A stretch of DNA of 64,000 nucleotides from a virus. The translations under genes and the position numbers were made by a program. Positions 23,308 to 39,555 of this stretch are shown here, piece by piece; positions within the stretch are counted from its first letter, which is position 1, and every line of letters begins with the position of its first letter. The stretch lies in IMG/VR virus record IMGVR_UViG_3300047388_000220, positions 1-64,000 of that record. One strand, written 5' to 3'. Below the pieces are notes generated by a model. That model saw only the letters and a list, made by a program, of their open reading frames with translations, was not told the origin of the DNA and did no database searches.

Positions 23308-26300
23308 TCATTGAATCTTAACTCCTCCACCGGTGATTGTTACTGGCCCTGTGATGGTGACACCATCCCCAACCGGCGGCGGAGGAGTTATCGGGATAAA
23401 GGTCGCCGTCACGGTGCAGTCGTTCGCAGGCATCGTGCCGTTGTAGGTTGCGCCCACCAGCGTGCCGCCGCATCCGGTGGCGGTCGAAACGGCATACCCG
23501 ATTCCAGGCGTCAACGTGCAGGCATAGGCGGTGCCACCGACGTGACTGCCGACGCACCCCGCAACGGATCCTGCTCCGGTGATGCTAGCCGAGATATTGA
23601 AACTGGGCGGCGGGGTTACTGCGAAAGTCGCTGCCACGGTGCAGTTCGAGGCCGGCATGATTCCGCTGTAGTTGCCACCTGAAAGCGCTCCACTGCAGCC
23701 CGTAACGCTTGTGGTGAAATATCCTGGGGCCGGAGTCACTGTGCAGCCATAAGCGGACCCAGAAGACAGCGTGCCTGCGCACCCGGTAACCGTTCCGCTG
23801 CCGGTAACGGAATTCGAGAGGGTAAAAGTCGCTCCCACGGACAGAAGAACAGGCTGATTCGACAGGGTAGCCGTGCCCGAGACGGTAGTAATCGTACCTG
23901 CCAGGCTCTGCTGCTGCGTGAACGTGGTCGCATACGGGGCATTGCCCAGCCAGCCGGTAAACCACGCAAGCCGCTGCGGAGATCCCGAGGCGACAAGGTC
24001 GACCGTATAGATATTTCCTCCAGTTACGGCAGTGCTTACCATGGGGCCTATAAAAGAAGCCGCGGACAGCCACGCCTTGGTTTGAATGAATGCAGCATTT
24101 ACCGATGTTGGTCCGGATGGAATCGTCGAGGTTGGTGGAGTGCAGCCGCCGTTTATCCCGTCTCCAAACTGAGTCCCCCAGCACCGATCCTGCCACGAAT
24201 ACCAGAGCGAGTGCACCGGCTTAGAGCCACTGGCCGGTGTGGCCGCGAGAGCGATCATGTGCCGCGATGTGTAGGCTGCCCTGAGGAACTTAGTGTTGGC
24301 GGAAGTGTCAGAGACGCCGTCAGTCATCGCTGAGTTGATTCCGAACCCGCCCTCGGTCTGCCAGACGGGGAGCGCTGAAGCCCATGAAGCGATCGCGGGG
24401 TTCCCAAGAATGGCTGGCGAGTAGAGCGTTGCAACCTGGTCCTTGATGGCCGTACGGCAAGAGCTATTTGGAGCTCCGGTACATGTTCCGCTTCCGTGGG
24501 CTACGAGATCCTCGGGAAAGGGAGCGGTGGCCGGAAATGTGATGGTCGTTCTCGCGGGGTAAGCGTGCCACGAAACCGCATCCGGCAGATGAGGCAGAGA
24601 GTAAAACACGGTCGTATCTGATTCGATGTGGGCCGTGCCGCTGGTCGGCGCTGTGGTCTCGTCAATCTGGACCTGTATGTCAGGGCCCGCAGCGTAAGTG
24701 TGGTTGTCAACAGGGATAAATCCTGCTGCTAGCCCAGTCACCGCATCCACGAGGCGATAAGTGATCGGCGTCGCCCCTGCGGTCACATCATTCAGGCTCA
24801 AAGCATCGTAAAATGCGCAGTTAGTTGGGCTGGTGAACGTGCAGCCGGGGTTGCGATGGCCATACTGCCGAATGTGGTACCAGTGCCCTGAGATTGCTGT
24901 AAAGGTGGTTAGATCGGGATGGGTGGCGGTCACGTCGATGCCGCGAAAATCCTGCCATGATAGGCAATTCTGGCCACAATACTGAAGTGTGTGCGAAGCG
25001 CCGTTGTACTGGAAACCCCAGCCCGTATAGGCGCACTCCCCAGCAGCATAAGCAGCAGCACTGCAGTTGTAGTTCACGTCCGCCTCAAGGTTGTGGATCG
25101 TGGCGACGTTGGGAATCATGAAGTAGAAGTCGCGGTAGTAGAATCTGGCGTTATCGAGGTCAGCGGAAACCGTCGGATAATCTCGTGGCCAGAGCACGTC
25201 CGCATTTGGGAACCCTGCCGCCGTCGACACGCCGAACACTGCACTACTCGAAGGTTTACATGGCGATGGCGCGAGTCCGGGCACAATGGTGGGCAGATTC
25301 CGGTTCGGGTCTCCGGTGCAGATGCCGTCATCAGCCGTGCCGCCGTAGGTATCGCTCAACGTGGCCGGTGAGTCTGTTCCCCCTGCTCCCAGCCCATTAT
25401 TCACAGGCGCTATGCCGACTCCCGAGTTGGTTGCCACCACCACGCCCAGATTAGGGCCAGGGGGAGTACGGCTCATTGCCAGCGTCTTGGCGGCGGTGGT
25501 GCAGTAAAGCTGCCCTACGGGCACCCCCGCGGGCTGGGGCACCCCTCCTGAGTAGTCAGTTATGCAGTTCGTGAGTTGCTTGCCGACCGGAGTAACAACT
25601 ATGCCGGTGGAGTTGGCATTGCTCGAAAACGTGGTGCTGATAACCGGTACGATCGCGCCCCAATCAGCGAGACCGGTTTCGAGCGCCGTAATCCACGAGC
25701 CGCCCGAGCCGTCTCCGCCAGCCGAAACCGATCCTCCGATGATGGTGCAGTCTCCGCAATAGAGCCGAATGATTGCTGCCTTGTCCTCGAGCATCTTCGC
25801 CAACTGCACGTAGGTCCCGCCCCAGTAATTTCCTACATTCCATTCGTTCCAGCCCTCGAATACTTTCAGAGTACAGGCACCTATAAGCGGACTCGATGGC
25901 GCAGCCGACACACCGCACACATGGCGCATGATAGCGGTCACGGCTTCCTTGTACTGGCAGTTGGTGGTATTCACTCCAGAGAGAACGTTCTGGCAGTTTG
26001 CGTAGGTGTTAATATCCGTCGGCGGCGTGAATAGGTTGCCCGTTCCGTTGGCCCAGATGGGAACATAGCGATCGGTGTAGATCGGGAACGAGCCGGGGTG
26101 CGCCACGTCCGAGGCCACGAAGGCATCGATCACCGCGTAATTGAAGGTTCCGCGCACTGGCTCGATACTTCTCCAGTCTGCCGGGCAACAGATACGATCC
26201 GCAGTTGGAAAGGGATTCGTGGTTTGCGTAGACGCAGTACGAGAGATCGATTGAACAGTTTGACCCCATGCCGACGAACCTAGTAAAACGATGATCATAA

Positions 26301-26310
26301 AGAAACGCAT
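23308..26310 (-). CDS. exported clan GH-A glycoside hydrolase with C-terminal InlB-type repeats
   Basis: 1000 aa. Residues 1-16 are a signal peptide (M-R-F-F-M-I-I-V-L-L-G-S-S-A-W-G then Q). W-R-S-I-E-P-V-R-G-T-F-N-Y (46-58) is the start of a TIM-barrel hydrolase. E156 in G-W-N-E-W-N and E653 in V-W-Q-T-E-G-G are placed like acid/base and nucleophile, with D-A-V-S-W-H-A-Y between them. About 350 residues (240-570) seem to be an insertion into the barrel. Two C-terminal repeats of about 75 residues (S-G-x-x-Y-x-C-T-V-x-P and M-P-A-x-x-C-T-V-x-A-T-F) resemble divergent InlB B-repeats. It likely degrades host surface polysaccharide. Whether it is virion-bound or free is unknown. Confidence 0.7.
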   Translation of the reverse strand: MRFFMIIVLLGSSAWGQTVQSISRTASTQTTNPFPTADRICCPADWRSIEPVRGTFNYAVIDAFVASDVAHPGSFPIYTDRYVPIWANGTGNLFTPPTDINTYANCQNVLSGVNTTNCQYKEAVTAIMRHVCGVSAAPSSPLIGACTLKVFEGWNEWNVGNYWGGTYVQLAKMLEDKAAIIRLYCGDCTIIGGSVSAGGDGSGGSWITALETGLADWGAIVPVISTTFSSNANSTGIVVTPVGKQLTNCITDYSGGVPQPAGVPVGQLYCTTAAKTLAMSRTPPGPNLGVVVATNSGVGIAPVNNGLGAGGTDSPATLSDTYGGTADDGICTGDPNRNLPTIVPGLAPSPCKPSSSAVFGVSTAAGFPNADVLWPRDYPTVSADLDNARFYYRDFYFMIPNVATIHNLEADVNYNCSAAAYAAGECAYTGWGFQYNGASHTLQYCGQNCLSWQDFRGIDVTATHPDLTTFTAISGHWYHIRQYGHRNPGCTFTSPTNCAFYDALSLNDVTAGATPITYRLVDAVTGLAAGFIPVDNHTYAAGPDIQVQIDETTAPTSGTAHIESDTTVFYSLPHLPDAVSWHAYPARTTITFPATAPFPEDLVAHGSGTCTGAPNSSCRTAIKDQVATLYSPAILGNPAIASWASALPVWQTEGGFGINSAMTDGVSDTSANTKFLRAAYTSRHMIALAATPASGSKPVHSLWYSWQDRCWGTQFGDGINGGCTPPTSTIPSGPTSVNAAFIQTKAWLSAASFIGPMVSTAVTGGNIYTVDLVASGSPQRLAWFTGWLGNAPYATTFTQQQSLAGTITTVSGTATLSNQPVLLSVGATFTLSNSVTGSGTVTGCAGTLSSGSAYGCTVTPAPGYFTTSVTGCSGALSGGNYSGIMPASNCTVAATFAVTPPPSFNISASITGAGSVAGCVGSHVGGTAYACTLTPGIGYAVSTATGCGGTLVGATYNGTMPANDCTVTATFIPITPPPPVGDGVTITGPVTITGGGVKIQ

Positions 26311-26318
26311 TTAACCCT

Positions 26319-27644
26319 TTAGAACGCCGTGCAAGCAAAGTCAATCACGTCACTGGCTACCGCGGTTGCTGGCACCGTCAGAGTGGCCGTAGTCGTGTTA
26401 TTTGTCGAGAAGTAAAGGCCAGTATTGCCTGCGGCCGTCGTCTCATCATTGGCGCGACACGACCAGCCATTCGCTGCCGTGAACCCGCTGGCGCCGTTCA
26501 TCGTGATTACCACCGTGCAAGCGCTCGCACCGATGGTGAACTTGCCGGCCGACGCGCCGCCCACGGTCGCGGTGATGGATGTGCAGCCGGTTGCTGTGAA
26601 CTTGGTGCCCAGGGACTCAAAAGCCACACCAGCCACTGTTCCAAGCGAATTGCATGTCTGACTGGTGGATGCTGCCCATACTCCGGCGGTGCTGCGGCAC
26701 CAGGCCGTGTCGCTAGATGAGCCGATGGCATAGCTTCCAGCGTTTTGGGTGTTCCTATACGTGGACGTAGTGATAATCGTCCCAGCAGAAACCACCGACC
26801 CGGCGTTTGACACTGCGAATACACTGTTGGCGGCTGAGCCGTTTAGCCGAAAATCGATGTAGTTGCCGGTGAACCCGGATGGCGCATTAACGCCAAGGTA
26901 AGTGCCGTTCGCACTCCAGGTGGTAGCCGCCGCCGCACCGCTCGCGGGTTGAATGAACAAGTAGGGGAAAGTCGTAGTCCCGGTGCCGCCCGTGAATAGC
27001 GTGGCGTTAGAGAATATAGCCGAAGTCGAAGCCGCTGGCGTGTTGGTTACTGTCGAGCCTCCGCTCAGGTTGGCCGCCGTGGTTGCTGACGTCGCCGTGG
27101 TCGCCGTGGTCGCGGATGTGGCCGTAACAGCCGCATTCGCCGTGCAGGCGGTGCACGTTCCGGTGAGGTTGGTTATCACGCCGGATGCGGGAGTACCGAG
27201 CGCCGGAGTGACGAAGATCGGAGAAGTGAATGTAAGCCCGCTGGCGAAATCGGCATTGACGAGCGCGCGGTAGGTGGGCGCCGCCGCCGCGCCGGTTGTA
27301 GGGCCAGCGAGGACAAGATTCGCCGCCGCTGTAGATAGCGCGAAGGTCAGCGCCGGGGTAGTGGTAGCGGTCGCCACGGAAGTCGTGAACAAGGGTGAGA
27401 GATTGCCTGCCGAGAACGATGTAACGGTCCCGACTCCGCCTCCTCCACTGAAAGTGCAGGGAACAACTGCATTCGAGACGATCGTATAACAGGTAAAGGC
27501 GGGAGGCCTGAACGCCAAGGCTGCACCGCTGCCAGTCGGAAACGGATTTCCGGACGAGTCGTAGAGTAGCATCGGAGGCGGCGTGAACTGCGCTCTTGCG
27601 GTCTCCGCCAGAGCCAGAACGACGAGCAGGATCCACTTGTTCAT
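26319..27644 (-). CDS. exported tail-fibre-like protein, 441 aa
   Basis: I chose the ATG at 27644, with GAGGT upstream, rather than an earlier in-frame start inside the preceding gene. It opens with a signal peptide (M-N-K-W-I-L-L-V-V-L-A-L-A-E-T-A-R-A then Q). The body is Ser/Thr/Ala-rich with G-T-V-T-S-F and L-A-G-P-T-T-G-A-A-A-A-P-T-Y-R-A-L-V, a pattern common in phage tail fibres. An A-T-x repeat follows near 180-200, and the last 100 residues include S-A-C-T-V-V-I-T-M and N-G-W-S-C-R-A-N-D. Likely adhesin; exported form inferred. Confidence 0.6.
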   Translation of the reverse strand: MNKWILLVVLALAETARAQFTPPPMLLYDSSGNPFPTGSGAALAFRPPAFTCYTIVSNAVVPCTFSGGGGVGTVTSFSAGNLSPLFTTSVATATTTPALTFALSTAAANLVLAGPTTGAAAAPTYRALVNADFASGLTFTSPIFVTPALGTPASGVITNLTGTCTACTANAAVTATSATTATTATSATTAANLSGGSTVTNTPAASTSAIFSNATLFTGGTGTTTFPYLFIQPASGAAAATTWSANGTYLGVNAPSGFTGNYIDFRLNGSAANSVFAVSNAGSVVSAGTIITTSTYRNTQNAGSYAIGSSSDTAWCRSTAGVWAASTSQTCNSLGTVAGVAFESLGTKFTATGCTSITATVGGASAGKFTIGASACTVVITMNGASGFTAANGWSCRANDETTAAGNTGLYFSTNNTTTATLTVPATAVASDVIDFACTAF

Positions 27645-27654
27645 GTATTTACCT

Positions 27655-30600
27655 CTAGTTCGCGTTGTCGATGACGCACTGATACGTTCCGGCGAGCGTT
27701 CCACTTGTGGGCACATTGACGGTAAAGCCTGTCGTCCCGAGAGCGGTTGCAAACGGCGTTCCGGTTGTCGCCGCGCTTGCCGATGGCGTCACGGAGCAGC
27801 TTGTCGGCGTGGATCCCATAGCAGACGAGAACGTCACAGCAACCGATGTGGCCGACGAGATTGACCATGTTCCGGAGCGGATCGGCGTAAGTTGCGACGT
27901 AAATGCGAAGGTCCCGGTGGCATCTTGTAACGTGAATACGCGGGCTGCCGTGAAGGTTCCCGTTATCCTCCCAGTGCCGCTGCCCTGCGTTCCGATGTAG
28001 ATACCCGGGATGGGCTTGGCTGTTGTTCCCAGGGTTCCGGTGGTGTTGGCCGTATTGGGAAGGAAGTCGCCGGAGGAATCCCAGTTCCACTGCACCGTTC
28101 CGCCGACCTCGATCTGTACACCGTTTGTTCCATCGCCAGTACCGAGGGTCATGCTTTGCGCTGCCAAAGCCCCCGCCCCATGATTCAAGAGCGTGTCCCC
28201 GGTCCCCGTAGTGTTGATTTCAAAGTATTGTTTATTGGTGCCGTCATCGCTCTTGTAGACCCTGGTCGTGCAGGCGGCAGTGGGCAATCCATTCACCAGC
28301 ACGCCGCAATAGGTAGCCAAGAGCCCGCTTACCCGCAGGAGATTAAGGTCTTTGTGAACTGTGTCAAGCGTAAGCTGATCAGCGAATGTGGGTCCGGAAG
28401 GCTGAGTGATGATGTCGCCCTGATCGCGGATGTAGTCTCCTCCCGGGGTGGTAGCCGGTATTTGAGGATTGGTCGCCACGGCCCAGACCTGCGTATTGGC
28501 ATCACAGGAGCCAGCATTCGAGACCGTCAGGGTGGGAGCCAGCATGCCATCGACTTGCGCGGTTCCGGTCGCTGGCGTGACGCAACCTCCAACACAGTTG
28601 TACGTCATGGTAGGGCTGAAAGAGTAATTGCTGCCATGCTCATTGTCTCTAATCGTGCACCGCATCACTCCCCACACCACATTTGGAACCGAGATCGAGC
28701 CGATGTTTGTCGGGGTCAAGACTGGAGTGCAAGCGGCCCCCGATCCGGTTGAATCGACAAAGGTCGCTGTGACTCCACCGGGAGGTGTGCTCCCAGGCGT
28801 CCATGCGCCATAGTTCCCTGCTGTAGTTATTCTGGTATTGCGGATGCCTAACGTTGCTGTGGCTGTGGCGACAGGGTGGGTGAGGCAAGTTGGTGCAACT
28901 CCGCCAATAACCTTCGTGCTGTATCCTGATCCGCCCGACGTGACTGTGCACGAGTCCGGCACGCCGGCTGTCAAGTGTACGGTAAACGCTCCGCCGCTGC
29001 CCGTCCCTCCCTGCGTATCCTGCACTGAGGTCAGAGGGGGATATGTATACGGTCCACCCGCCTGCGTTATGGTACAACCTGAAGGAACATTCAGCACTCC
29101 ATTGGTCTGCGTCAGGGTCACGAGCGTGGGCTTGAGCCATGCTGCATCGCCCCCAACAATGGTGATTCCCGGCGCGGCCAAATACCCATAGCCCTGATGA
29201 CTCAATGGAAATGAGGCGATCGCTACCTGCCCGCCGCCGAGAGAAGAGAATGTGGGCGCACCAAAGATCGCACCGGCTCCCTGCGCATAGGCTGTGTAAT
29301 TTCCGAATGAAGAAACATGCAGCGCTTCATTCTGCATAGCCTGAACTGCGGTGTGGTTGGGGTAGCTCAGGTCGACAAATGAGTTCGTCGGGTCGAGGCT
29401 CGCATTGGGAAGATCGTCGCTTGAAGCGGTTGGATAAGCAGCGTCCGCAAAGAAGTCTCCGCGGAAATAATCGTTGGTGTGAGTGATGTTGATGCCCGCT
29501 GTAGTACCGTCCACATACTGCACATGGGGGGCGTAAGGGGTTGGCCCCGGCCATGAAGTATTGAAGGTATATCCACCTGACGTGTGAACGAAATTGGTGT
29601 TGCTCCACGTGTTTACGTTGGTGACGTTGCTCATGATGATGCTGGCTGCCGCGTTAGAGTCAAAGGCGGTTTTGGCAATAATATAGTTGTAAGGCCCAGC
29701 CGCTCCGGGTCCGTCGCCGCGTCCAATCCAGACGCCCGGACCAAGAGGGTTCGAGCTGCATGTAGCTTGGCTGGCAAACGACGTTCCATTCAGTTCGGAT
29801 ACCGCGTTGGCGAGGGATACCGGCTGTCCGCATCCATTGAGAGCAATCGAATTGTTGTACATCGTGTTGGTTGGTGCTCCAGTCCATCGCACCCCGCCGA
29901 GCGAATTGTAGGTGACGATGTTCGATAGATCGCCGCCGAAAGTTGTCTGCGAACCGTGCAGGTTCGCTCCCCATCCTTTGTTGAATTGAATGTAATCTCC
30001 GTCGATCCTGATACCGTCTCCGCCAGTCAAATCTCCATTGGAACTGAGGTCCAGCCGTGACGGCATGATGATTCCATCGCCCGACATGTACTTGATGGTG
30101 TTGGACAAGATTGCGACTTTCCAGCTTCCCTCGACCGAAATCGCTGAAATGCCGTTATAGATGTTCCATGTCCATGCCGGAGCAGCGACGTAAGCGCAGC
30201 CAGGCTCGCTAGCTGTCGGATTGGTCTCACATCCATAAGGCGTCATCTCGAAGCCTTCAATCCTGCCATCCATCTGGAAATGCGGCGCATCCGCAGCGGT
30301 AATTACGCCTTGCACGTCGATCATGGACGGCGCCGGATAAGCCGTAGCGCCTTGGAATGTGACGCTGGTTGGAACAGTGAAGCTCGACAGCATCAGAAGC
30401 TGGGTCTTGCCGTGACCCGCGCCTTGAAATATAGGCCCTCTGGAGTAGGTGCCATTTGTCGGCGGACGGGTGTAGTACATCAGCGGAGCGGAGATGCACC
30501 ACTTGCCTGCTGGAAAGATGACCGGAGAGCCACCTGAAGCATCTATGGCTGCTTGAATCGCAGCGGTCGAATCGAAGGGAGTTGCCCCCGAGCAAGATTG

Positions 30601-31449
30601 CGCACCATACGCCTGAATGTTGTATACCTGCCCACCTTTGTCGTAAACGGCTGCGACGGCATAGGAAGCGCCAACGCATCCGGTCAGCGAACCGCAATTG
30701 GTGTTACCAGCTCCCGCTGTGTAACTGTTCGCCGTAAGGTCGCCTGCCAGGTCTGTAGTTACGTCGGGATGGCCTTGGATCGTCGGCTGCGTGCCCCCTA
30801 AAGGATAAAAGCCAAGATCGTACTGAGTAGAAGGAATAACGTTTCCGTTCCCTCCTGGAGTCGTCAAGAGCACATATTCAGATGTGGGTCCATCCCATTT
30901 GTAACTGTCGATCGGAACAGTTCGCTGATCGACAATCGTCACATTTGGGCTGCCATGTGCCGCCAGGATCATCGCCGTCGTTCCGCCAAGCCGGCCCCAG
31001 TCCGGTGTCAGGATGACTTGATAAGCCATGCCCTGGGCGAAGTTGATCGCCTCCTGGAGTCCCGCGGTCGCAGACTGGATCGTGAAGTTTGAATGCGGGT
31101 TGACTGTGGTCACGGTGATCGAACAGCCCGATCCGCTCACTCGTACCGCCGTGGGTGTCACGATCTCGGTATTCGATGGCGTATTGTCCTTGATCGTGAT
31201 CGGTGTGCCGACGGCGAAAACTGGCGACAGGACGAGGCCAGACGCAGATACCGTGCAGAATGACGGTACCGACCATGAAAACTGCCCTGTATTGCCTTGG
31301 GGGACCTGCCACTGACCAAAATTCGAGGCGTACAGCAGGCCCGAGAAATTAGCCGGCCCGAGTTGAGGCTGCCCGGGTGGTCCTCCCTGGGCAAAGCTCG
31401 AGTGAGCCAAGCTCAGACCTAACCAGATGATGAGAAAGAGTCGTTTCAT
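27655..31449 (-). CDS. exported pectate-lyase-like beta-helix spike protein, 1264 aa
   Basis: Signal peptide at 1-20 (M-K-R-L-F-L-I-I-W-L-G-L-S-L-A then S-F-A-Q). Residues about 33-185 are a module shared with the two genes upstream (Y-A-S-N-F-G-Q-W, E-I-V-T-P-T, G-L-Q-E-A-I-N, V-I-L-T-P-D-W). From about 275, Y-G-A ... D-S-T-A-A-I-Q-A-A-I-D-A-S-G-G ... V-I-F-P-A-G-K-W is the classic start of a pectate-lyase-type right-handed beta-helix. A C-terminal fibre-like region closes it. This build suits a tailspike or depolymerase. The HNH gene next to it lies on the opposite strand. Confidence 0.65.
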   Translation of the reverse strand: MKRLFLIIWLGLSLAHSSFAQGGPPGQPQLGPANFSGLLYASNFGQWQVPQGNTGQFSWSVPSFCTVSASGLVLSPVFAVGTPITIKDNTPSNTEIVTPTAVRVSGSGCSITVTTVNPHSNFTIQSATAGLQEAINFAQGMAYQVILTPDWGRLGGTTAMILAAHGSPNVTIVDQRTVPIDSYKWDGPTSEYVLLTTPGGNGNVIPSTQYDLGFYPLGGTQPTIQGHPDVTTDLAGDLTANSYTAGAGNTNCGSLTGCVGASYAVAAVYDKGGQVYNIQAYGAQSCSGATPFDSTAAIQAAIDASGGSPVIFPAGKWCISAPLMYYTRPPTNGTYSRGPIFQGAGHGKTQLLMLSSFTVPTSVTFQGATAYPAPSMIDVQGVITAADAPHFQMDGRIEGFEMTPYGCETNPTASEPGCAYVAAPAWTWNIYNGISAISVEGSWKVAILSNTIKYMSGDGIIMPSRLDLSSNGDLTGGDGIRIDGDYIQFNKGWGANLHGSQTTFGGDLSNIVTYNSLGGVRWTGAPTNTMYNNSIALNGCGQPVSLANAVSELNGTSFASQATCSSNPLGPGVWIGRGDGPGAAGPYNYIIAKTAFDSNAAASIIMSNVTNVNTWSNTNFVHTSGGYTFNTSWPGPTPYAPHVQYVDGTTAGINITHTNDYFRGDFFADAAYPTASSDDLPNASLDPTNSFVDLSYPNHTAVQAMQNEALHVSSFGNYTAYAQGAGAIFGAPTFSSLGGGQVAIASFPLSHQGYGYLAAPGITIVGGDAAWLKPTLVTLTQTNGVLNVPSGCTITQAGGPYTYPPLTSVQDTQGGTGSGGAFTVHLTAGVPDSCTVTSGGSGYSTKVIGGVAPTCLTHPVATATATLGIRNTRITTAGNYGAWTPGSTPPGGVTATFVDSTGSGAACTPVLTPTNIGSISVPNVVWGVMRCTIRDNEHGSNYSFSPTMTYNCVGGCVTPATGTAQVDGMLAPTLTVSNAGSCDANTQVWAVATNPQIPATTPGGDYIRDQGDIITQPSGPTFADQLTLDTVHKDLNLLRVSGLLATYCGVLVNGLPTAACTTRVYKSDDGTNKQYFEINTTGTGDTLLNHGAGALAAQSMTLGTGDGTNGVQIEVGGTVQWNWDSSGDFLPNTANTTGTLGTTAKPIPGIYIGTQGSGTGRITGTFTAARVFTLQDATGTFAFTSQLTPIRSGTWSISSATSVAVTFSSAMGSTPTSCSVTPSASAATTGTPFATALGTTGFTVNVPTSGTLAGTYQCVIDNAN

Positions 31450-31463
31450 GCTATGCTTAGCCC

Positions 31464-32021
31464 ATGCCTAAACAACCAAAGTATAGTTTGGTTCCATCGT
31501 GCGACGGAGCGTGCTACATCATCGGGTCCGACGCGAGCATCCATAGGATCAGAGAAATCAAAACTTGCCCTTCTAGCAACAAAAGATACAACGTGTTCAA
31601 TTTCTTTGGTCCGGACGGAAGGAAAACCCCGCGCTTTGTTCACCATCTTGTCGCTGAGTGCTTTCTTGGGCCTAAGCCTGAAGGACTCCAAATCAACCAC
31701 AAGGACGGCAACCGTTTCAACAATGCCGCAGATAACTTGGAATACGTGACTCCAAAGGAAAACACGCAGCATGCGATCCGTCTTGGATTGCGTGAACCTA
31801 AAACCGCAGAGCACATGAAGAAGATGCATAAAGCATGGAAAGGCAAGCGGCATTTCGCTCCTATCCGCAAGTTTACGGACGAACAGGCCTTGAACATCAT
31901 CGCGGCGTTTCGATCTGGAAGAACAATGACGGCAATTGGTCAAGAGTTTGGGTGCTCCCATAGCTCTGTTAATCGCATCGTGAACGGAAAGATCGTCTAC
32001 CAGTATCTTGATCGAAGCTAA
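31464..32021 (+). CDS. HNH homing endonuclease inserted against the late operon
   Basis: 185 aa on the plus strand, flanked by minus-strand late genes and overlapping the stop of the following one by 4 nt. The sequence has a NUMOD4-like start, then F-V-H-H-L-V-A-E-C-F-L ... I-N-H-K-D-G-N-R-F-N-N-A-A-D-N-L-E-Y, the HNH core with catalytic H and N residues. It ends with a helix-turn-helix (T-A-I-G-Q-E-F-G-C-S-H-S-S-V-N-R-I). The opposite orientation marks it as a mobile invader. Confidence 0.9.
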   Translation: MPKQPKYSLVPSCDGACYIIGSDASIHRIREIKTCPSSNKRYNVFNFFGPDGRKTPRFVHHLVAECFLGPKPEGLQINHKDGNRFNNAADNLEYVTPKENTQHAIRLGLREPKTAEHMKKMHKAWKGKRHFAPIRKFTDEQALNIIAAFRSGRTMTAIGQEFGCSHSSVNRIVNGKIVYQYLDRS

Positions 32022-32761
32022 GGCACAGTCACTGCGCTCCAGACGTTGGTGCTTCCGCATACGTAGAGCACGGTGCTCGCGCTCACCGCCGACGTATTCA
32101 CGTCGAGAGATCCGACCGTGCAGTTAGCCGATGGCACGCCCGCGGTTGCGGTGATGGTGACGCCGGCCCCGACACTGCCAGATGCGAGCGCCGGCGTTGT
32201 CCCGGTATAAGTTGCAAGCGTGGCCGTGCGCGCATCGAGAATCGACGTATTCGCGCCCGCGATGGCCGCCGTGACCATCGCTGTCGTGCCTCCCATCGTC
32301 TGCCAGTCGGGAGTCAGAACCACCACAGCCCTCGAAACGCCAGCCCAATTCAGCGCCTCCTGGAGTCCAAGAGTGCCGGATTGCAGGTAGTACGTCACGT
32401 GCGTGTGGGTTGCAGGCAGGCCCACCGAGCAGCCGGCGCCGACATAGCTTGCGATGCTGGGCGTCACCGTCTCCGTGTTGGCCGGCGTCCCGATGTCGAC
32501 AATCGTGATCGGCGCGCGTGTCGAGAATAGCGGAAAGACAACCCCGCCCGAGGTTCCATAGCACTGCCCGGGATTGTCCCACCTGGTTCCCGACGGCGTG
32601 GGCGCAATCGTCCAGTGCGCAAAGTTCGATGCATACAAAAGCCCGGCCACATCTGCATCACCGTTGGCCTGGCTGGTAACAGATGCGGTCGGGCTCGTGG
32701 TTTGGCCTGCAATTGCAAGTGGCAGAGCCAGAAATACAGCGAGTAACGCGAGTTTTTTCAT
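32018..32761 (-). CDS. exported protein sharing a module with the spike gene, 247 aa
   Basis: Signal peptide (M-K-K-L-A-L-L-A-V-F-L-A-L-P-L-A-I-A-G then Q) with CAGGAG upstream of the ATG. Residues about 35-190 parallel the N-terminal module of the 27655-31449 protein: L-L-Y-A-S-N-F-A-H-W, E-T-V-T-P-S, L-Q-S-G-T-L-G-L-Q-E-A-L-N, V-V-L-T-P-D-W, G-G-T-T-A-M-V. A short C-terminal beta region follows. It looks like the module on its own, without the beta-helix. Partner or competitor of the larger spike is possible; function unknown. Confidence 0.6.
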   Translation of the reverse strand: MKKLALLAVFLALPLAIAGQTTSPTASVTSQANGDADVAGLLYASNFAHWTIAPTPSGTRWDNPGQCYGTSGGVVFPLFSTRAPITIVDIGTPANTETVTPSIASYVGAGCSVGLPATHTHVTYYLQSGTLGLQEALNWAGVSRAVVVLTPDWQTMGGTTAMVTAAIAGANTSILDARTATLATYTGTTPALASGSVGAGVTITATAGVPSANCTVGSLDVNTSAVSASTVLYVCGSTNVWSAVTVP

Positions 32762-32776
32762 GGCTGGCTCCTGTTT

Positions 32777-33727
32777 TTACTTGCAGTTGTAGGTGAAGAA
32801 ATACTGTGTTGACGCAACCGGCGCCGTGGTGGCCACGGTCACGGTCAGGATGCGCTGAAACGTGGTCGTCGATCCAGACGAGCTCATCGCGCTCGTGAAT
32901 GTGGTGTAGGCATTCGCACCGCTCGAGGTCACAACGCACGTTCCAGCATATTGCGGTCCGCCAGCCGACACCGCCGGCCAGGTCTCCGTAAAGAGTGTGC
33001 CTGTCGTGGTCGCCGTTCCGGTCAGCACGCTGGCAGTGCCGGCGATCGCCGTCGAGGATCCAGTATTCGAAACCGTCGGAGCTGAGCCAGCACCGGCCCC
33101 AGCAGCAATCGTCGGCGCCGTATTCTTCGAAAGCGCGTTAGTTGAGGTAAACGCCGTGCCGCTCCACACGTAGAAAGTGACCGGCGCAGTCGTAATATCC
33201 TCAACCAGCGTCGTCATATCCCCAACGGCCGCGGCCAGAATCGTTGCCCCATTCGTGCCCGGAATGTTGTTGGCCTGCGCCCACCAGTTGCGATCGAGCA
33301 AGATCAGCGACGGTATCGCCTGGCCCTTGAGGACATTCAGCGCCTCCTGTAAGCCAGCCGTACCTGACCTGAGCTGATAAGTGAAGTGATTGTGTGTCGG
33401 CGCGATCGCGACTCCGCAACTGCCGGCCGTGTTGACGATCGAGGTTGGGGTCACAACCTCCGAATTCGCCGTATTCGAATCGGCAATCAACACTGGAGCA
33501 TTGGTCGCAAAGTCAAAGAATGTAACATTCTGCCCCTGGCTGTTGCAGAGGCTCCGCCCCTGGTAGATGTAGGTGTTTGGGCTCTGCTGATTGATCGACC
33601 AGAGCCCGAAACTGGTCGCAAAGTACCATGGCGCCGTGAATGGCGTGGTTGCGGTTTGCGCGTCGGCCATAGGAGCAACGCTCCCCATGGCGGCCAGCAA
33701 CAGGAAGATGCTGAGAATCCTTTTCAT
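32777..33727 (-). CDS. second exported protein with the shared module, 316 aa
   Basis: The start at 33727 has AAAGGAG upstream, while an earlier in-frame start overlaps the preceding gene. Signal peptide M-K-R-I-L-S-I-F-L-L-L-A-A-M ... M-A-D-A then Q. The body matches the paralogous module (Y-F-A-T-S-F-G-L-W, E-V-V-T-P-T, T-H-N-H-F-T-Y-Q-L, S-G-T-A-G-L-Q-E-A-L-N) and adds a Thr/Ser-rich C-terminal domain ending in Y-F-F-T-Y-N-C-K. Third member of a local family; role unknown. Confidence 0.6.
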   Translation of the reverse strand: MKRILSIFLLLAAMGSVAPMADAQTATTPFTAPWYFATSFGLWSINQQSPNTYIYQGRSLCNSQGQNVTFFDFATNAPVLIADSNTANSEVVTPTSIVNTAGSCGVAIAPTHNHFTYQLRSGTAGLQEALNVLKGQAIPSLILLDRNWWAQANNIPGTNGATILAAAVGDMTTLVEDITTAPVTFYVWSGTAFTSTNALSKNTAPTIAAGAGAGSAPTVSNTGSSTAIAGTASVLTGTATTTGTLFTETWPAVSAGGPQYAGTCVVTSSGANAYTTFTSAMSSSGSTTTFQRILTVTVATTAPVASTQYFFTYNCK

Positions 33728-33770
33728 GACTCGTTTGCTCCTTTGGATTATGTGTTTGTGGTGGTGGTTT

Positions 33771-36104
33771 TTAGTGGACCCGAATGCCCGTATCTGTGGT
33801 GGTTCCGCAGTTTGCTGCATTGACAGTCAGAGCTCCGACCGGCAGAGCGCCGGCCGTAGCGCAGCGATACATGGTTTGCCCGCCTCCGGCGACGGTCGTG
33901 TTTCCGAGGATGGTTGTGTTCCCGGTGCAGTCTACCCGCAATAAGTTCAGGCTGCCTGCGGTGTCTTGCACATCAAGCGCCGTGCTGGCCGTTGATCCGC
34001 AATGTGTTGTCAGGAACCCAGCGTCTGGAAAGCCGAGCTGGCCAGCGTCTACTCCCGCGAAGTTCCCCCCGACGCCCTGAAAAACCGTTCCAACGACGCT
34101 TGTATAGGTGTTATTGGCTGCGGTGAGGGTAGAAGCCTCGTTATAAAAGACGTGATCGCCAATGTTCGTGAAGGCTGTTCCTGTCACCGTCCAGCGACCC
34201 TGGGTAACAAGCGCCTCGTGCGCGATGTTGGTAAATACTGAATTGGTCAAGACAACATCATTGCCGCTGGCGCTCGATGCTCCGAACCCTTGGTAGTAGT
34301 TATTGCAGATCAGATTGCCGACCGTGATCCTGCTGGTTTGGTTTTGAAGGCTCATACAGGACCCTGAAGACCCAGTCGTTTTATAGTCGATAGTCCCATT
34401 GACAATGGTCACATTATTCAGGCTGGTCGACCCGCCATCGAGCAGAATTCCAAAATTCGCCATCGCACCGATGGTGAAATCAGACAAAGTGAGATACTGG
34501 TTAATCTGATCCTGCGCGGAGATGATCATTCCATTAGAATCTCCCGGTGCCGCCAGCGAATCGAGAGTGATGTGCGAGAGTATGTTTGAACTGGATGGCG
34601 CATAAGGGTCAGATTTGACAATAAACGAGTCGACCGAGTGTCCTCGCTCGTAATCTCCATCCCACACCGAGTTGGTTCCTTTGAGAATCGAGCCATGCAG
34701 GTTATAAACTCCGGACGTGTTGTGCACGTAGGCGTGATCCACATTCTCCACAAGGAACACATGATAAGGGGCAGAGAGGTTATAGCCGAGACCTACAACA
34801 TTTTCAATTATCGGTGACTCAATCTGCGGAGCACCTATAACTTGACCGCTATTTGAAAGGCTCAACACATCAGCCGGCACGCCTCCGTAGGTCGCATTCA
34901 CGAATGCAGGTCCAACATCGATGCCTAGATTTCGAATGGTGAGGAAATTGGCGCCCTGGATTGCCGCCACGGTGCCTTGAATGATGGTTCCGCCGACCAG
35001 CGCCGTCGGAGCGGTCGGAGAATTGAACCACGGCATGCCTGATCCCTCAATATCGACATGCGCGGTAGAGATGGCCGGATTCGATTGGTCAAGGCCGCTC
35101 CGATAGGTGCCGATTCCGAGCATCACCGTTCCGCCCCCTGTTGGCAGGAGCGCTATGCACGCAGCTACCGTGCTTATCGTCGGACAATTCACTGCCGGCG
35201 CAGCAGATCCGGTCACCGTAATGCTGCCCACTTCCAAATTCCCGGTGATGTGGCCTGACCCGGCAAACAACTCATACGCCCCCAGGCTCAGCGGGCCCGA
35301 GATCGATTGCAGCCCATGGCTGGCAGGCTGAGCGAGAATCGGAACCGGATACGTCACCACGCCGTGGTAGTAGGGCAGGCCGTTGGCTAAATTGATCGTC
35401 GATCCCGGGCCCAGCAACTGCCACTGCATCGGGAAGCCAGGAACAGCATTGCCGCTTGAATCGGTCATCGATGCCTTGTAACCGGTCCCAGTCGGCCAGA
35501 TCGCATCATTGGCCACCACCTGGCAGAGTGTCGTATTCGTCGAGGATGGCGCCGCTCCGGTTACCAGGGCCGCGGACTGGACGTAGGACGCTGATCCGCT
35601 AGTTTGGCCCTGCAGCGTTTCTCCGCCGGAGGCAGTACCGATGAAGACGTCCATGCCCACCGCATTTGTTGGCACACCGCTTGCGGGGGGATTCACAACC
35701 AGCGCCGAGGTCGCGCTAATGCGCGTCTCCGGGCTGGCCAGCGTGACATGGCCGGCGGCGTCGTACCACTCGTAGACGGTGTAGTAGGTTCCGGCAGGCA
35801 GAGAGCCTGACCCGCCCGATGTGTCGATGGTCGCGGTCAGAGGATTCGGAATTCCCACCACAGACCCATCCGTCGAGGTCGCACACGTTACCGGCGTAGC
35901 GATATCGATCGCGCAGCCCTGGATAAAGCCGGCCTGCGATGGGGTAAGGGTCAGGATGGAGTTCGATGATGGGGTGCCGTTGGCGCCGCGGAGGCTGCCG
36001 GTCAGCGTCACCTGTGAATTGGTGAAGCAAGTCTGACCCGTGGCGATGGTGACAACGGCACACCAGAAGACTATCAGGCCGAGCAACCGCAAGAGGCGGG
36101 TCAC
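33771..36104 (-). CDS. exported beta-helix (pectin-lyase-fold) spike-like protein, 777 aa
   Basis: Signal peptide M-T-R-L-L-R-L-L-G-L-I-V-F-W-C-A ... A-T-G then Q. An N-terminal beta-sandwich-like region (about 20-300) is followed by repeated N-x-x-I and G-x-I stretches from about 350 to 700 (I-R-N-L-G-I-D, I-I-E-N-V-V-G-L, L-N-N-V-T-I-V-N-G-T-I) typical of right-handed beta-helices. I-S-T-V-A-A-C-I-A-L-L-P-T-G-G-G-T-V-M marks its entry. Likely a polysaccharide-binding or cleaving spike. Its start overlaps the upstream small gene by 4 nt. Confidence 0.6.
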   Translation of the reverse strand: MTRLLRLLGLIVFWCAVVTIATGQTCFTNSQVTLTGSLRGANGTPSSNSILTLTPSQAGFIQGCAIDIATPVTCATSTDGSVVGIPNPLTATIDTSGGSGSLPAGTYYTVYEWYDAAGHVTLASPETRISATSALVVNPPASGVPTNAVGMDVFIGTASGGETLQGQTSGSASYVQSAALVTGAAPSSTNTTLCQVVANDAIWPTGTGYKASMTDSSGNAVPGFPMQWQLLGPGSTINLANGLPYYHGVVTYPVPILAQPASHGLQSISGPLSLGAYELFAGSGHITGNLEVGSITVTGSAAPAVNCPTISTVAACIALLPTGGGTVMLGIGTYRSGLDQSNPAISTAHVDIEGSGMPWFNSPTAPTALVGGTIIQGTVAAIQGANFLTIRNLGIDVGPAFVNATYGGVPADVLSLSNSGQVIGAPQIESPIIENVVGLGYNLSAPYHVFLVENVDHAYVHNTSGVYNLHGSILKGTNSVWDGDYERGHSVDSFIVKSDPYAPSSSNILSHITLDSLAAPGDSNGMIISAQDQINQYLTLSDFTIGAMANFGILLDGGSTSLNNVTIVNGTIDYKTTGSSGSCMSLQNQTSRITVGNLICNNYYQGFGASSASGNDVVLTNSVFTNIAHEALVTQGRWTVTGTAFTNIGDHVFYNEASTLTAANNTYTSVVGTVFQGVGGNFAGVDAGQLGFPDAGFLTTHCGSTASTALDVQDTAGSLNLLRVDCTGNTTILGNTTVAGGGQTMYRCATAGALPVGALTVNAANCGTTTDTGIRVH

Positions 36105-36259: not shown

Positions 36260-36272
36260 CATCATTCCCCTT

Positions 36273-36623
36273 TCACTGAGGTCTCGGCGCCCCTGCGGCC
36301 ACCAGATGTGGCGTATTTGCCTTGGCAATCGCCTCCTGCTCGGCTTCAAGCCGCTTCTGCGCCTCGGCCGCTTCCATCTCACGCTGATGGTTTGTCACTG
36401 CCTGATGGTCCTGAATCGCGCCCTGCATGACCTGGTTGCGCATCTGCTGGGTCGCCTGCAGCATCTGGAACACCGCATTCGACTGTGGCAACTCGAGGCC
36501 GGCGAGCTCCTTCTCGCAGACCCTGAATGCTCGGTCCGCATTTGCCCGAGCGGTTGCCACCGGTTGGTTGGTGATGTCGTTGATGGTCTCGCCGGGAGTT
36601 CGAAAGTCCTGCTTGTTGCTCAT
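36273..36623 (-). CDS. hypothetical helical protein, 116 aa
   Basis: I use the ATG at 36623, which overlaps the upstream stop in an ATGA, rather than the earlier in-frame start. The product is charged and helical with Gln/Glu/Ala heptads (M-L-Q-A-T-Q-Q-M-R-N-Q ... R-E-M-E-A-A-E-A-Q-K-R-L) and a disordered C-terminus. It resembles small structural or chaperone-like phage proteins; no family assigned. Confidence 0.5.
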   Translation of the reverse strand: MSNKQDFRTPGETINDITNQPVATARANADRAFRVCEKELAGLELPQSNAVFQMLQATQQMRNQVMQGAIQDHQAVTNHQREMEAAEAQKRLEAEQEAIAKANTPHLVAAGAPRPQ

Positions 36624-37090
36624 GCCTTCGCCTTTTCCTTTCGCTGTTGCCATGGTGGTTTGCAACTTAAGTTACACATTGGCCCTTGCGGATACTGCCA
36701 GAACCGCCGCGGCTTCTCCTGCTTCAGCCGATAATCTTGCGCCTGCGGTCCAAGCAACGGCTGTTCGCACACCGCACAGCGCCGAAACTCAACCGGGTAC
36801 ATCGTGCCGGCGCCGCCGGCTCTCTGGTCAGCCTCAACCAGCGCTTTCGCCTTCCGCCGGCTGTTGCACCAAAACTCAGTCGGCGTGAACGTCAACCCTC
36901 GTGGCAATTCGCAATCGCTGAACTGCTCGCGGTCCGCCCAGGTCGCCGTCAGTGTTACCCACCAGACCCGATGCGCTACCGGAACCGCGCGATACTGCCT
37001 CATTCGCCGGCGCCGGATCTTCGTATTGCGCCGGTCGAGCTTCGTCTCGCGCAGTGGATCGTCCATCCGGGGGTAATCTTTGAGGTTCAT
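36620..37090 (-). CDS. hypothetical basic protein with cysteine pairs, 156 aa
   Basis: Arg/Lys-rich N-terminus (T-K-I-R-R-R-R-M-R-Q-Y), two tryptophan-rich strands, then C-A-V-C-E-Q-P-L-L-G and a later C-N-L-S-C, which together could form a zinc site. It overlaps both neighbours by 4 nt, so it is part of a tightly coupled set with the nuclease upstream. Function unknown; a DNA-binding role is plausible. Confidence 0.5.
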   Translation of the reverse strand: MNLKDYPRMDDPLRETKLDRRNTKIRRRRMRQYRAVPVAHRVWWVTLTATWADREQFSDCELPRGLTFTPTEFWCNSRRKAKALVEADQRAGGAGTMYPVEFRRCAVCEQPLLGPQAQDYRLKQEKPRRFWQYPQGPMCNLSCKPPWQQRKEKAKA

Positions 37091-37638
37091 TTTTCCGGGT
37101 ATCCCAGTGTCACCGAGGTCTCAGCGATCGCTCCTAGAGGCAAAGAATGCGGAGTTTTGTCTGGATTTAGGTAAGAAACACCCTCCGCAGTGTAAATGGC
37201 TAAAATGTCCTGCCTGCCAGCCCCACGGTTATTTACGTAGACTCTTCCGCTATCCGTGTTCATCCACGCACTACGAACCTCGACTCGGTAAACCAGTTCG
37301 CCTTGGATGGCTATCAGGTCGCAAGAGGCATGAGCTGAAACACTCCTGAATACCTCAAACCCACGTTGCAGTAGGTCAACGCAAACCGATAACTCGCCAA
37401 CCGCGCCCCGATTGCCGAACGGTATGGTATCAACATGAGCAGAGTGCCGCGAACTTTGCGAGTAAGCCTTCCGTTGGCACCCTGACGAACAGTAGCGCTT
37501 CTTCGCGCTCCAAGCTATTGTCACGTTCCCGCATAATTCACAGGTAACTTGGTGCCTCGGACGGCCACTGTTTTGTTTGGCCCTTTTATCGCCGGTCAGC
37601 GATATCGGTGTGTATCCTCGTTTACGTGGGGTTGTCAT
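37087..37638 (-). CDS. PD-(D/E)xK endonuclease with zinc-ribbon N-terminus (homing type)
   Basis: 183 aa. A zinc-binding start (C-E-L-C-G ... Y-C-S-S-G-C-Q-R-K-A) precedes G-A-V-G-E-L-S-V-C-V-D-L-L-Q-R-G-F-E-V-F, then C-D-L-I-A-I and Y-R-V-E-V-R-S. The E, D and E-x-R layout is that of the PD-(D/E)xK fold as in I-Ssp6803I-type homing nucleases (the usual K is R here). It could be a mobile nuclease or a resolvase-like enzyme. The replaced lysine leaves activity uncertain. Confidence 0.65.
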   Translation of the reverse strand: MTTPRKRGYTPISLTGDKRAKQNSGRPRHQVTCELCGNVTIAWSAKKRYCSSGCQRKAYSQSSRHSAHVDTIPFGNRGAVGELSVCVDLLQRGFEVFRSVSAHASCDLIAIQGELVYRVEVRSAWMNTDSGRVYVNNRGAGRQDILAIYTAEGVSYLNPDKTPHSLPLGAIAETSVTLGYPEK

Positions 37639-37703
37639 GGTGGTCGGCCCTCCGATGGCCTACTGCCGGGCCTCGAAGCCCGACAACCCCATTCTACCCC
37701 CAG

Positions 37704-37928
37704 TCAGTTTAGCGTGCTGTGCGTCAATAACTCCGAAAGCGGCACATTTAGATCAAGACAGATTTTCAGCTCCTGGAGCAACTTCACGTCCTCGTAGTAG
37801 AACGCCAACCGCGGCCGATCGAGCACCACAAGCACATCGCGGTAGCAGCCTAACTTCGTCTGCGTGCATGAGAGTCCCTGCGCGTACGGGTTGTCGTTCG
37901 CGACCACTGACTCTTGCTCGAGATGCAT
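37704..37928 (-). CDS. hypothetical protein, 74 aa
   Basis: The start at 37928 avoids overlap with the preceding gene and has a GGGG run upstream. The sequence is mixed alpha/beta (D-V-L-V-V-L-D-R-P-R-L-A-F-Y-Y-E-D-V-K-L-L-Q-E-L), about the size of a small regulatory or structural subunit. Nothing recognised. Confidence 0.45.
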   Translation of the reverse strand: MHLEQESVVANDNPYAQGLSCTQTKLGCYRDVLVVLDRPRLAFYYEDVKLLQELKICLDLNVPLSELLTHSTLN

Positions 37929-37932
37929 AATA

Positions 37933-38289
37933 CTACCCCACTGTAAGCTGCCATACACGCGGACCCGATGGTCCACCGCTCTCCTTTGGCTTCCACGTTT
38001 TCCCATAGCTAAACGCCGCTACGTTCCGCTCCTTGCCCACCCACCTGAGCACCCCATCCCTCACTAGGACCTCGACAGCCTCGCGCGTCTGGTGGTCGTG
38101 GCACCCAGGCCCAAAGCACGGATGCCACTGGCCCCACTCCTGCAGCATCCGGCCACTGTGATTCGACAGCACACACACCCGCCGCTTCTCAAGAACCCTG
38201 CTGAATTGCGGCTGAGGACTCGCGAAGACGCGCCCCTTGATGTGCGTCTCGATACGCTTGCCGGTCTGAATCGTATGGCTTTCGGCCAT
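37933..38289 (-). CDS. hypothetical protein, 118 aa
   Basis: I take the ATG at 38289, preceded by GGAG, because the longer frame contains low-quality sequence upstream. The product is basic, with W-G-Q-W-H-P-C-F-G-P-G-C-H-D-H (possible metal site) followed by a helix (E-A-V-E-V-L-V-R-D-G-V-L-R-W-V-G). This could be a small winged-helix-like or structural protein. Unrecognised. Confidence 0.45.
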   Translation of the reverse strand: MAESHTIQTGKRIETHIKGRVFASPQPQFSRVLEKRRVCVLSNHSGRMLQEWGQWHPCFGPGCHDHQTREAVEVLVRDGVLRWVGKERNVAAFSYGKTWKPKESGGPSGPRVWQLTVG

Positions 38290-38479
38290 GCTCAAGACTC
38301 CATCGCGCGTATACCACTTATATTGAAAGGGTTGTCTGTCTTTTGAGGGGTAATGCCGGCTGCGATACGCGCCTCGCAGTCTGGGCGAGTCCGAGCGACG
38401 AGGGATTGTGGACCCTGTTTGGGGCTGCCCCCCAAAATCCCCCATCATGCTGGACGTTACGCCCTCTGTCCGGCATTGG

Positions 38480-39022
38480 TCAATGCGAATCTGGAGTTTT
38501 TGCTATTCCGCTTGCCCTCGTGCTAGGCTGGACGGCAGAGATCACGATACGTAGGACATCTGGCAAGTGATCGCGCACTTGGTTGTTCGAGAAGCGCTTC
38601 ACGACCCATCCATTACGGCGGAAGATGTTGTCTCGTCTTGCGTCTGCCCTCTTGGCGTGCGTCGTTGTGTGCACGGATCCGTCAACCTCGATGATCAGCC
38701 GATCCTGAACTGAGGCGAAGTCAGGAATGAACCCCAACACGATTGGCTGAAACTCAAACCGGCCGACGGTCCGCAGGTCTGAGGCGAGGGCTACACGGAG
38801 AGTTCGCTCTGCTTCTGTGGGGTTCTGTCTCAGTTTGTCTCGAAAATCCTTCTTCCATTGCTCATGAGCGAGCGAGCCTGGGTAGTATCCCGACTTCGGA
38901 TCCCTGACCCTATACGAATACGGGGAACTGGAGTCAGGGGTTGGAATCGCACATTTTGGACAGACTGAAAGCGCATTTCCACAGACACAGAGCGAAGCGT
39001 TGACTAAGACTCTTGGCGCCAT
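38480..39022 (-). CDS. DUF559 / Vsr-like endonuclease
   Basis: A cysteine-rich N-terminus (C-V-C-G ... C-P-K-C) leads into a classic DUF559 region: N-P-T-E-A-E-R-T-L-R-V-A-L, then F-E-F-Q-P-I-V-L-G-F-I-P-D-F and L-I-I-E-V-D-G-S-V-H, with R-R-D-N-I-F-R-R-N-G-W-V-V-K-R-F near the end. This is the PD-(D/E)xK fold of very-short-patch-repair-like nucleases, and such genes also spread as homing elements. Start chosen at 39022 because the upstream in-frame extension overlaps the first late gene. Confidence 0.7.
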   Translation of the reverse strand: MAPRVLVNASLCVCGNALSVCPKCAIPTPDSSSPYSYRVRDPKSGYYPGSLAHEQWKKDFRDKLRQNPTEAERTLRVALASDLRTVGRFEFQPIVLGFIPDFASVQDRLIIEVDGSVHTTTHAKRADARRDNIFRRNGWVVKRFSNNQVRDHLPDVLRIVISAVQPSTRASGIAKTPDSH

Positions 39023-39051
39023 GAATGTCAGTCTAGCACGCGGCGGTTGCG

Positions 39052-39555
39052 TCAGTGCATTACAAACGCCCCGCCTGTCACGCCGCGGCGCCAGCCCGCT
39101 CCACCGCCCCAAGCTCCGCCTCCGCCATCGTTGTAGTGGTAAGCGAGGTTGATGGTTCCGGGGCCGTAGTACTGCGACCCGTCCGACACCCTATTTCCCA
39201 CCACCCAGACGTACAGGCGCGTGCATGCCTGGAGCAGCGTATGGCCGTTGGATGTCACGTCTTCCTTGACCTGGCAAGCAGACGCCGAGCTTAGGGAGCC
39301 ATCACCGAGATCGGTGCCCGTCCAATTTGCATAGTTTGGCCCGCTCCCGACCAGATAGAAGTGTACCCACACGGAAGCTAAAGTGTTGTTGTCGGTATTC
39401 TTGAGCGGGATGCCGAGGCAGCTAAAGAGTGTAGTGTTGTTCGCGCCACAGACATAGGGCGTGGTGGTTGATGCCTGAATGCTGTAGGTTTGGGCGCTGG
39501 CAGCGATCGCGGCCAGCATAACGAGCGTAAGACTGATCACTCTTGCTAAACGCAT
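39052..39555 (-). CDS. first late gene: small exported protein, 167 aa
   Basis: ATG at 39555 with a strong GGGAGGAAC site. Residues 1-21 (M-R-L-A-R-V-I-S-L-T-L-V-M-L-A-A-I-A-A-S-A then Q) are a clear signal peptide. The mature part is beta-rich with several cysteines, Y-L-V-G-S-G-P-N-Y-A-N-W, and a Gly/Trp-rich tail (G-G-G-G-A-W-G-G-G). It shares the A-Q cleavage style of the spike genes further down the arm. Function unknown; it could be an envelope-side accessory. Confidence 0.6.
   Translation of the reverse strand: MRLARVISLTLVMLAAIAASAQTYSIQASTTTPYVCGANNTTLFSCLGIPLKNTDNNTLASVWVHFYLVGSGPNYANWTGTDLGDGSLSSASACQVKEDVTSNGHTLLQACTRLYVWVVGNRVSDGSQYYGPGTINLAYHYNDGGGGAWGGGAGWRRGVTGGAFVMH

Follow-up and report, generated by a model that had tools for sequence, protein, structure and literature searches.

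Signal peptides on a spike- and fibre-like gene cassette of a phage that likely infects Acidobacteriota: probable export of putative receptor-binding proteins

The window analyzed here comprises 64 kb of the 68,974-base IMG/VR record IMGVR_UViG_3300047388_000220, and its positions 23308-39555 include seven minus-strand open reading frames (ORFs) that we treat as a cassette. All seven were open at the coordinates given in an initial annotation and, as had been described there, each product begins with a basic and then a hydrophobic stretch ending before a Gln. We refer to a predicted Sec/signal-peptidase-I-type signal peptide followed by Gln at +1 as SP^Q, and scored it by a rule of our own, which required a basic n-region, an h-region free of charges, Q at +1, a small residue at -1 and a small or aliphatic one at -3. 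Gln occupied +1 in all of the seven products, while the A/G-x-A/G pattern proposed initially was exact in five, the other two having S and I at -3. The genes had also been called consecutive, which holds for six of them (interrupted by an HNH-like ORF on the opposite strand at 31464-32021) but not for the seventh, which lies ~3 kb off beyond other genes. The labels of spikes, a fibre and a hydrolase stood, that of 33771-36104 by homology to podovirus tailspikes and the others by reading and by comparison with relatives. The seven genes are presumably late, judging from their strand and their position beside the portal gene. The features are as follows (aa, amino acids; Cys, counts after cleavage; ^, predicted cleavage site).

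17831-20401, minus strand: putative portal protein, landmark beside the cassette (identified by size, conservation and gene order)
23308-26310, minus strand: glycosidase-like SP^Q protein, 1000 aa, 30 Cys
26263-26310, minus strand: predicted signal peptide of 23308-26310, 16 aa, AWG^Q; N-terminus MRFFMIIVLLGSSAWG^QTV
26319-27644, minus strand: fibre-like SP^Q protein, 441 aa, 10 Cys (tail-fibre-type repeats by eye)
27591-27644, minus strand: predicted signal peptide of 26319-27644, 18 aa, ARA^Q; N-terminus MNKWILLVVLALAETARA^QFT
27655-31449, minus strand: SP^Q protein A, 1264 aa, 22 Cys
30880-31341, minus strand: N-module of A
31390-31449, minus strand: predicted signal peptide of A, 20 aa, SFA^Q; N-terminus MKRLFLIIWLGLSLAHSSFA^QGG
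32018-32761, minus strand: SP^Q protein B, 247 aa, 4 Cys (N-module and short tail)
32174-32647, minus strand: N-module of B
32705-32761, minus strand: predicted signal peptide of B, 19 aa, IAG^Q; N-terminus MKKLALLAVFLALPLAIAG^QTT
32777-33727, minus strand: SP^Q protein C, 316 aa, 4 Cys (N-module and C-terminal domain)
33125-33634, minus strand: N-module of C
33659-33727, minus strand: predicted signal peptide of C, 23 aa, ADA^Q; N-terminus MKRILSIFLLLAAMGSVAPMADA^QTA
33771-36104, minus strand: beta-helix tailspike-like SP^Q protein, 777 aa, 12 Cys
36036-36104, minus strand: predicted signal peptide of 33771-36104, 23 aa, ATG^Q; N-terminus (V)TRLLRLLGLIVFWCAVVTIATG^QTC
39052-39555, minus strand: small SP^Q protein, outlier of the cassette, 167 aa, 4 Cys
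39493-39555, minus strand: predicted signal peptide of 39052-39555, 21 aa, ASA^Q; N-terminus MRLARVISLTLVMLAAIAASA^QTY

The SP^Q rule was passed by 7 of the 11 main minus-strand ORFs of this region versus none of the 57 main ORFs elsewhere in the window (Fisher P 3e-7). Random N-termini drawn from the mature part of each protein passed it in 0.05-0.3% of trials, and shuffles of the proteins' own first 40 residues in 0.2-4%. When the window and its relatives were combined, 209/1395 main ORFs passed, as opposed to 30/2406 overlapped ORFs, most of which are non-genes. The seven SP^Q N-termini are neither due to chance nor a start-site artefact.

A, B and C share a module of ~150 residues directly after the signal peptide (N-module), and a profile search with it recovered 63 viral loci and 6 genome loci. 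All of the latter were metagenome-assembled genomes (MAGs) of Acidobacteriota, ruling out a Bacteroidetes host. One of them, an Acidobacteriaceae MAG (L090), carries an integrated prophage with chromosome-like genes on both flanks, in which genes resembling those for the portal, the major capsid protein (MCP) and terminase come after the cassette. The relatives possess one to six SP^Q genes at a similar position near the portal. As a separate observation, the loci L057, L058 and L061, which belong to a single contig (IMGVR_UViG_3300048815_000026), encode several module proteins, one of them after an MCP-like gene and not beside the portal. Among the 102 non-redundant module ORFs, 93 passed the SP^Q rule (including L088:10895, a doubtful module match), three more did so by eye (L053, L082 and L089), and three were cut by contig ends. 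Altogether, ~95 of the 98 scorable module proteins retain the signal peptide and the +1 Gln despite divergence to ~25-45% identity, and the hydrophobic n-h-c pattern is kept across widely diverged members. The three without a signal peptide are found in L084, L087 and L088; those at L084:2797-3609 and L088:3565-4383 are short homologues lying between terminase-like and portal-like genes, a position taken in L086 by an SP^Q protein with related motifs. Judging from their sequences, we regard the two short homologues as a natural cytosolic version of the N-module.

An AlphaFold model of the B protein built with 76 module sequences reached a pLDDT (predicted local distance difference test score) of 93-98 over mature residues 21-160. 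Fold searches with the N-module produced weak matches only; the Klebsiella K1 capsule lyase and tail-tip chains of phage Chi were among them, at noise level. The profile also gave weak matches (E 1e-4 to 1e-6) to large chromosomal proteins of Acidobacteriaceae, probably reflecting chance or generic beta-repeat similarity.

Even cysteine numbers are preferred in the exported proteins of Gram-negative bacteria (PMC7678975). The mature forms of the seven window proteins have, in coordinate order, 30, 10, 22, 4, 4, 12 and 4 Cys, all of which are even. In 115 non-redundant SP^Q proteins, 112 contain Cys and 106 of these have an even number (P ~1e-24), whereas even numbers were found in 114/244 (47%) of other ORFs (n=270); this comparison involves related sequences, predicted cleavage sites and 'other' ORFs that include non-genes. 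For eleven other residues in the same SP^Q proteins, even counts amounted to 46-61%. The bias is seen in the C-terminal parts alone (39/44, P 1e-7) and in SP^Q proteins lacking the N-module (64/69, P 4e-14), and some of the odd counts look like the result of misplaced predicted cleavage sites. The N-module itself has 2, 3 or 4 Cys in the 95 signal-bearing copies (79, 5 and 11 copies, respectively) and none in the three signal-less copies. The even Cys numbers of the mature SP^Q proteins are a signature of periplasmic disulfide bonding, and we consider that the parity comes close to proving that these proteins fold in an oxidising compartment.

These observations bear on the idea that nothing is exported and that the hydrophobic N-termini stem from misplaced starts, are left over from host genes or serve as anchors in the virion. 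Some alternative starts do exist upstream and downstream, and the annotated start of the tailspike of Escherichia phage Dewey likewise includes a signal-like stretch of doubtful reality. Upstream starts are possible in three of the seven ORFs, and the initially annotated starts are those that yield the signal peptide. Later start codons were ruled out, as the conserved residues of the N-module begin soon after the cleavage site and would be lost, breaking the module. The retention of the n-h-c pattern across wide divergence, the Cys parity, the loss of Cys in the signal-less homologues and the similar predicted sites in two cultured phages (Tunturi 1 and 2; see below) also speak against this idea, and we consider it very improbable. 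The initial claim that the proteins are built for export is supported by the kept SP^Q, the even Cys numbers, the Cys-free signal-less homologues, the start positions and the gene blocks of the two cultured phages; the cassette proteins are, on this evidence, almost certainly exported.

In seven phages, three consecutive module proteins are encoded in the order C (32777-like), B (32018-like) and A (27655-like). C is kept over its full length in the relatives (58-74%) and B is conserved over ~207 residues in the phages with the trio, while A is conserved over the N-terminal ~190 aa and its C-terminal part is then swapped, giving totals of up to 1876 aa. In the window, A consists, by eye, of the N-module, a beta-helix-like middle and a fibre-like tip. 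The C-terminal parts of module proteins in the relatives include a tail spike (phrog_4636) with GDSL lipase, a tail fiber (phrog_11419) and Ice_binding, and another SP^Q protein is GH39-like. Residues 313-569 of 33771-36104 match the tailspikes of Escherichia/Salmonella podoviruses (E about 1e-7), and L197 encodes the same spike domain (65%) on a different N-terminus, which is again SP^Q. Spike or fibre homology was found for 33771-36104 and some proteins of the relatives, not for every member of the cassette: profile and phage-record searches with 26319-27644 yielded no match (above the cut-off in the former), and PDB sequence searches with the large window proteins gave nothing useful. The glycosidase-like protein 23308-26310 displays, by eye, the motifs FEGWNEWN ... 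WQTEGGFG in its catalytic part and bears divergent InlB B-repeats (PF18998, 1e-12) at its C-terminus. With its swapped C-terminal parts, the C-B-A trio resembles a receptor-binding cassette.

In the direction of transcription, the cassette lies upstream of portal-like, Cys-free scaffold-like, MCP candidate and tail candidate genes, the last including 3745-4806 and 4803-7886, and terminase, RecE-like, Bet-like, DnaB-like and GroEL-like genes reside on its opposite side. The portal (64-85% identity) matched first 15 and then 19 IMG/VR loci, and nothing in a search of GTDB genomes. In phage records, no match was found for the portal, the A protein, the fibre-like protein, the module protein of L084 or the MCP candidate, and TerL matched distant terminases. 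No tape-measure-like giant was seen in the window outside the cassette, and this therefore suggests a short-tailed phage. We rejected the possibility of host genes in a mis-binned contig, as the cassette accompanies phage structural genes in many viral contigs.

Several neighbouring ORFs are recorded here in their own right. Three likely homing endonucleases (31464-32021 on the plus strand, 10831-11499 and 17186-17827 on the minus strand; two HNH-like and one GIY-YIG-like by reading) are inserted in the cassette/structural region, one of them opposite to the cassette strand. The ORF at 57300-58901 (plus) encodes a GroEL-like chaperonin (phrog_5725, E 4e-138) and adjoins an HNH endonuclease and the DnaB-like helicase. 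A weak glycosyltransferase match (PF13692, E 1e-4; PF20706, E 7e-5) was obtained for 15724-16833 (minus), between the portal and scaffold-like genes. Between the sixth and seventh signal-peptide genes lie a PD-(D/E)XK / Hjc-like nuclease (PF11645; 37087-37638, minus) and a second protein of phrog_503 (38480-39112, minus). The small ORFs at 13465-13647 (minus) and 41094-41327 (plus) possess signal peptides without Q at +1 and are possibly lysis proteins.

The podoviruses Tunturi 1 and 2 come from isolation on the acidobacterium Tunturiibacter, strain X5P2 of Tunturiibacter psychrotolerans being their published laboratory host, and the main text of the paper describing them mentions neither signal peptides nor mass spectrometry (PMC11924767). 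In our predictions, gp12, gp13, gp16 and gp17 of both phages carry SP^Q, and gp14 has a signal peptide without Q. Their mature Cys counts are 20 (gp12), 10 (gp13), 20 (gp14), 1 (gp16) and 32 or 34 (gp17). The depositors named gp13 tail fiber (Tunturi 2), gp14 tail spike (Tunturi 1) or pectin lyase (Tunturi 2) and gp17 virion structural. Scans of 50-kb regions from Tunturi 3 and 4 revealed no SP^Q gene. As Acidobacteriota podoviruses with a block of signal-peptide genes (fibre, spike and virion structural) and nearly all even Cys numbers, Tunturi 1 and 2 resemble the window phage; the difference is that no N-module was found in Tunturi 1.

We find a receptor-binding or depolymerase role quite likely and the most likely one, because of the modular swapping, the spike and fibre homology and the gene position. 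Among the three uses considered in the initial annotation (acting free outside the cell, decorating the host surface and assembling on virions after lysis), the modular architecture and gene context appear to favour parts of the virion or of adsorption, and assembly on virions after lysis is the likeliest of the three. We propose that the window encodes an exported receptor-binding/depolymerase cassette of an Acidobacteriota-infecting tailed phage, the products of which would attach to particles at lysis, and give this reading a probability of roughly 0.5; the component that carries the doubt is attachment to the virion, which we see as evenly balanced. The signal peptides, the +1 Gln, export with disulfides, the shared module, the swapped C-termini and the host phylum are strongly supported by the sequences, and cleavage, pyroglutamate formation, oligomerisation and virion attachment after lysis are what we infer in addition.

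The main rival to virion attachment is free secretion, in which the proteins would be exported late in infection, stay soluble or surface-bound without ever becoming virion parts, and trim the exopolysaccharide of the host and its neighbours, easing release and spread. Every export feature fits this alternative, and GH39-like, GDSL lipase, Ice_binding, InlB B-repeats and CHB_HEX_C are C-terminal parts typical of secreted enzymes or adhesins. There are also precedents: the bacterial enzyme WceF, which has a tailspike fold and carries an export signal, acts on exopolysaccharide (PMC7949094), and a signal-peptide esterase of Xanthomonas phage PBR31 has been suggested to help lysis (PMC10975493). 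The fixed trio order, the shared N-module and the swapped C-termini are, however, the architecture of receptor-binding proteins, and the tail fibre and spike domains, the location beside the portal and the authors' names for gp13, gp14 and gp17 of the Tunturi phages point in the same direction. We hold free secretion to be possible but the less convincing account.

Alternatively, the proteins might stay displayed on the surface of infected cells or lysogens, where they would mask or destroy receptors and thereby exclude other phages. The prophage of L090 carries the cassette, and the Q-rule genes of Porphyromonas phages have been suggested to modify the host surface (PMC10367356). Nevertheless, we noticed no domain for membrane anchoring or surface sorting at the C-termini, for which no systematic search was made, the cassette sits in the structural operon and not in a moron position, and at least five large spike/fibre proteins per phage exceed what exclusion would require. 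The paper on the Tunturi phages names integrase/recombinase genes for Tunturi 3-5 alone and not for Tunturi 1 and 2 (PMC11924767). Such display or lysogenic conversion is improbable in our view.

In the proposed reading, the proteins would be made with a Sec signal peptide and cross the inner membrane, where signal peptidase I would cut before the Gln. The Gln may cyclise to pyroglutamate; this is only a suggestion, because +1 Gln is partial in the host (11/26 and 3/22 AxA-type signal peptides in two acidobacterial host MAGs) and no PF05096-type glutaminyl cyclase was found in 6 host MAGs. The cysteines would pair into disulfides in the periplasm, where the spikes and fibres would fold. Through the N-module, C, B and A are probably joined with each other or with a shared partner, and the C-terminal parts would bear swappable glycan-binding or glycan-cutting domains. 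Lysis would then bring the exported proteins together with the particles built in the cytoplasm, to which they would attach as adsorption parts. Classical work on P22 has shown that, in vitro, completed particles can take up tailspikes outside cells. That virion assembly in one branch of tailed phages is finished outside the cytoplasm in this way, with Sec-exported, disulfide-bonded and processed spikes docking at lysis, is a proposal we advance with slightly more doubt than belief.

Several points count against the proposed reading. The N-module has no recognisable fold match (best Z <6 and no Foldseek hit with E <0.001). No relatives were found for 23308-26310 (searched in viral contigs) or 39052-39555, and these two could be accessory secreted proteins. 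At least one candidate tail protein of the window (3745-4806), beta-rich by reading, lacks a signal peptide and could serve as the fibre or adaptor proper to the virion. The N-module was not found in Tunturi 1, the case of which is analogous and not homologous in this respect. Finally, we found no observed case, for any tailed phage, of periplasm-made proteins meeting cytoplasmic particles.

Tailed phages, as generally understood, are built from proteins that do not leave the cytoplasm, and their spikes would therefore normally be without disulfides before release. Completion of virions outside the cytoplasm, if true, would break the rule of wholly cytosolic assembly. Exported spikes would account for the richness in cysteine of spikes in phages infecting an abundant soil phylum, and would supply disulfide-stabilised glycan-cutting enzymes; if the proteins are free instead, the phages secrete varied polysaccharide-active enzymes into soil. 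In both cases, the cassette genes may be mistaken for host or auxiliary genes by annotation pipelines. The export idea is directly testable in Tunturi 1 and 2, which are in culture and show the same layout.

In the literature that we searched, no paper describing tail spikes exported through Sec in tailed phages came up, and the known systems share parts of the pattern. The podovirus tailspikes of Escherichia phages Dewey and Huey have a beta-helix domain homologous to residues 313-569 of 33771-36104, but that of Dewey has, in place of an SP^Q N-terminus, a head-binding one that we take to be P22-like. The annotated Dewey tailspike (L163:1892-3886) places a Tat/Sec-like stretch, MKRRTLLKSLLGLTSLLPVKFAASQ, before this domain, which could reflect either a misannotated start or a further exported spike. 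WceF of Pantoea stewartii is a trimeric tailspike-fold enzyme and has an export signal in common with the cassette proteins, but is a bacterial gene product with a Tat signal and no phage context (PMC7949094). In the Q-rule substrates of Bacteroidetes, described for cellular proteins, cleavage by signal peptidase I exposes Gln (PMC5837995, PMC10653852), as predicted for 7/7 window proteins, although the latter are of a phage and its host is of Acidobacteriota. Phages of Porphyromonas gingivalis (proposed Nixviridae) have five genes with Q-rule signal peptides, the function of which is unknown (PMC10367356). Their host belongs to Bacteroidetes and the genes have not been described as spikes or fibres, but they share with the window phage genes that combine Sec signal peptides with Gln at +1 and are fitted to host export, and they are the nearest published case to exported spikes.

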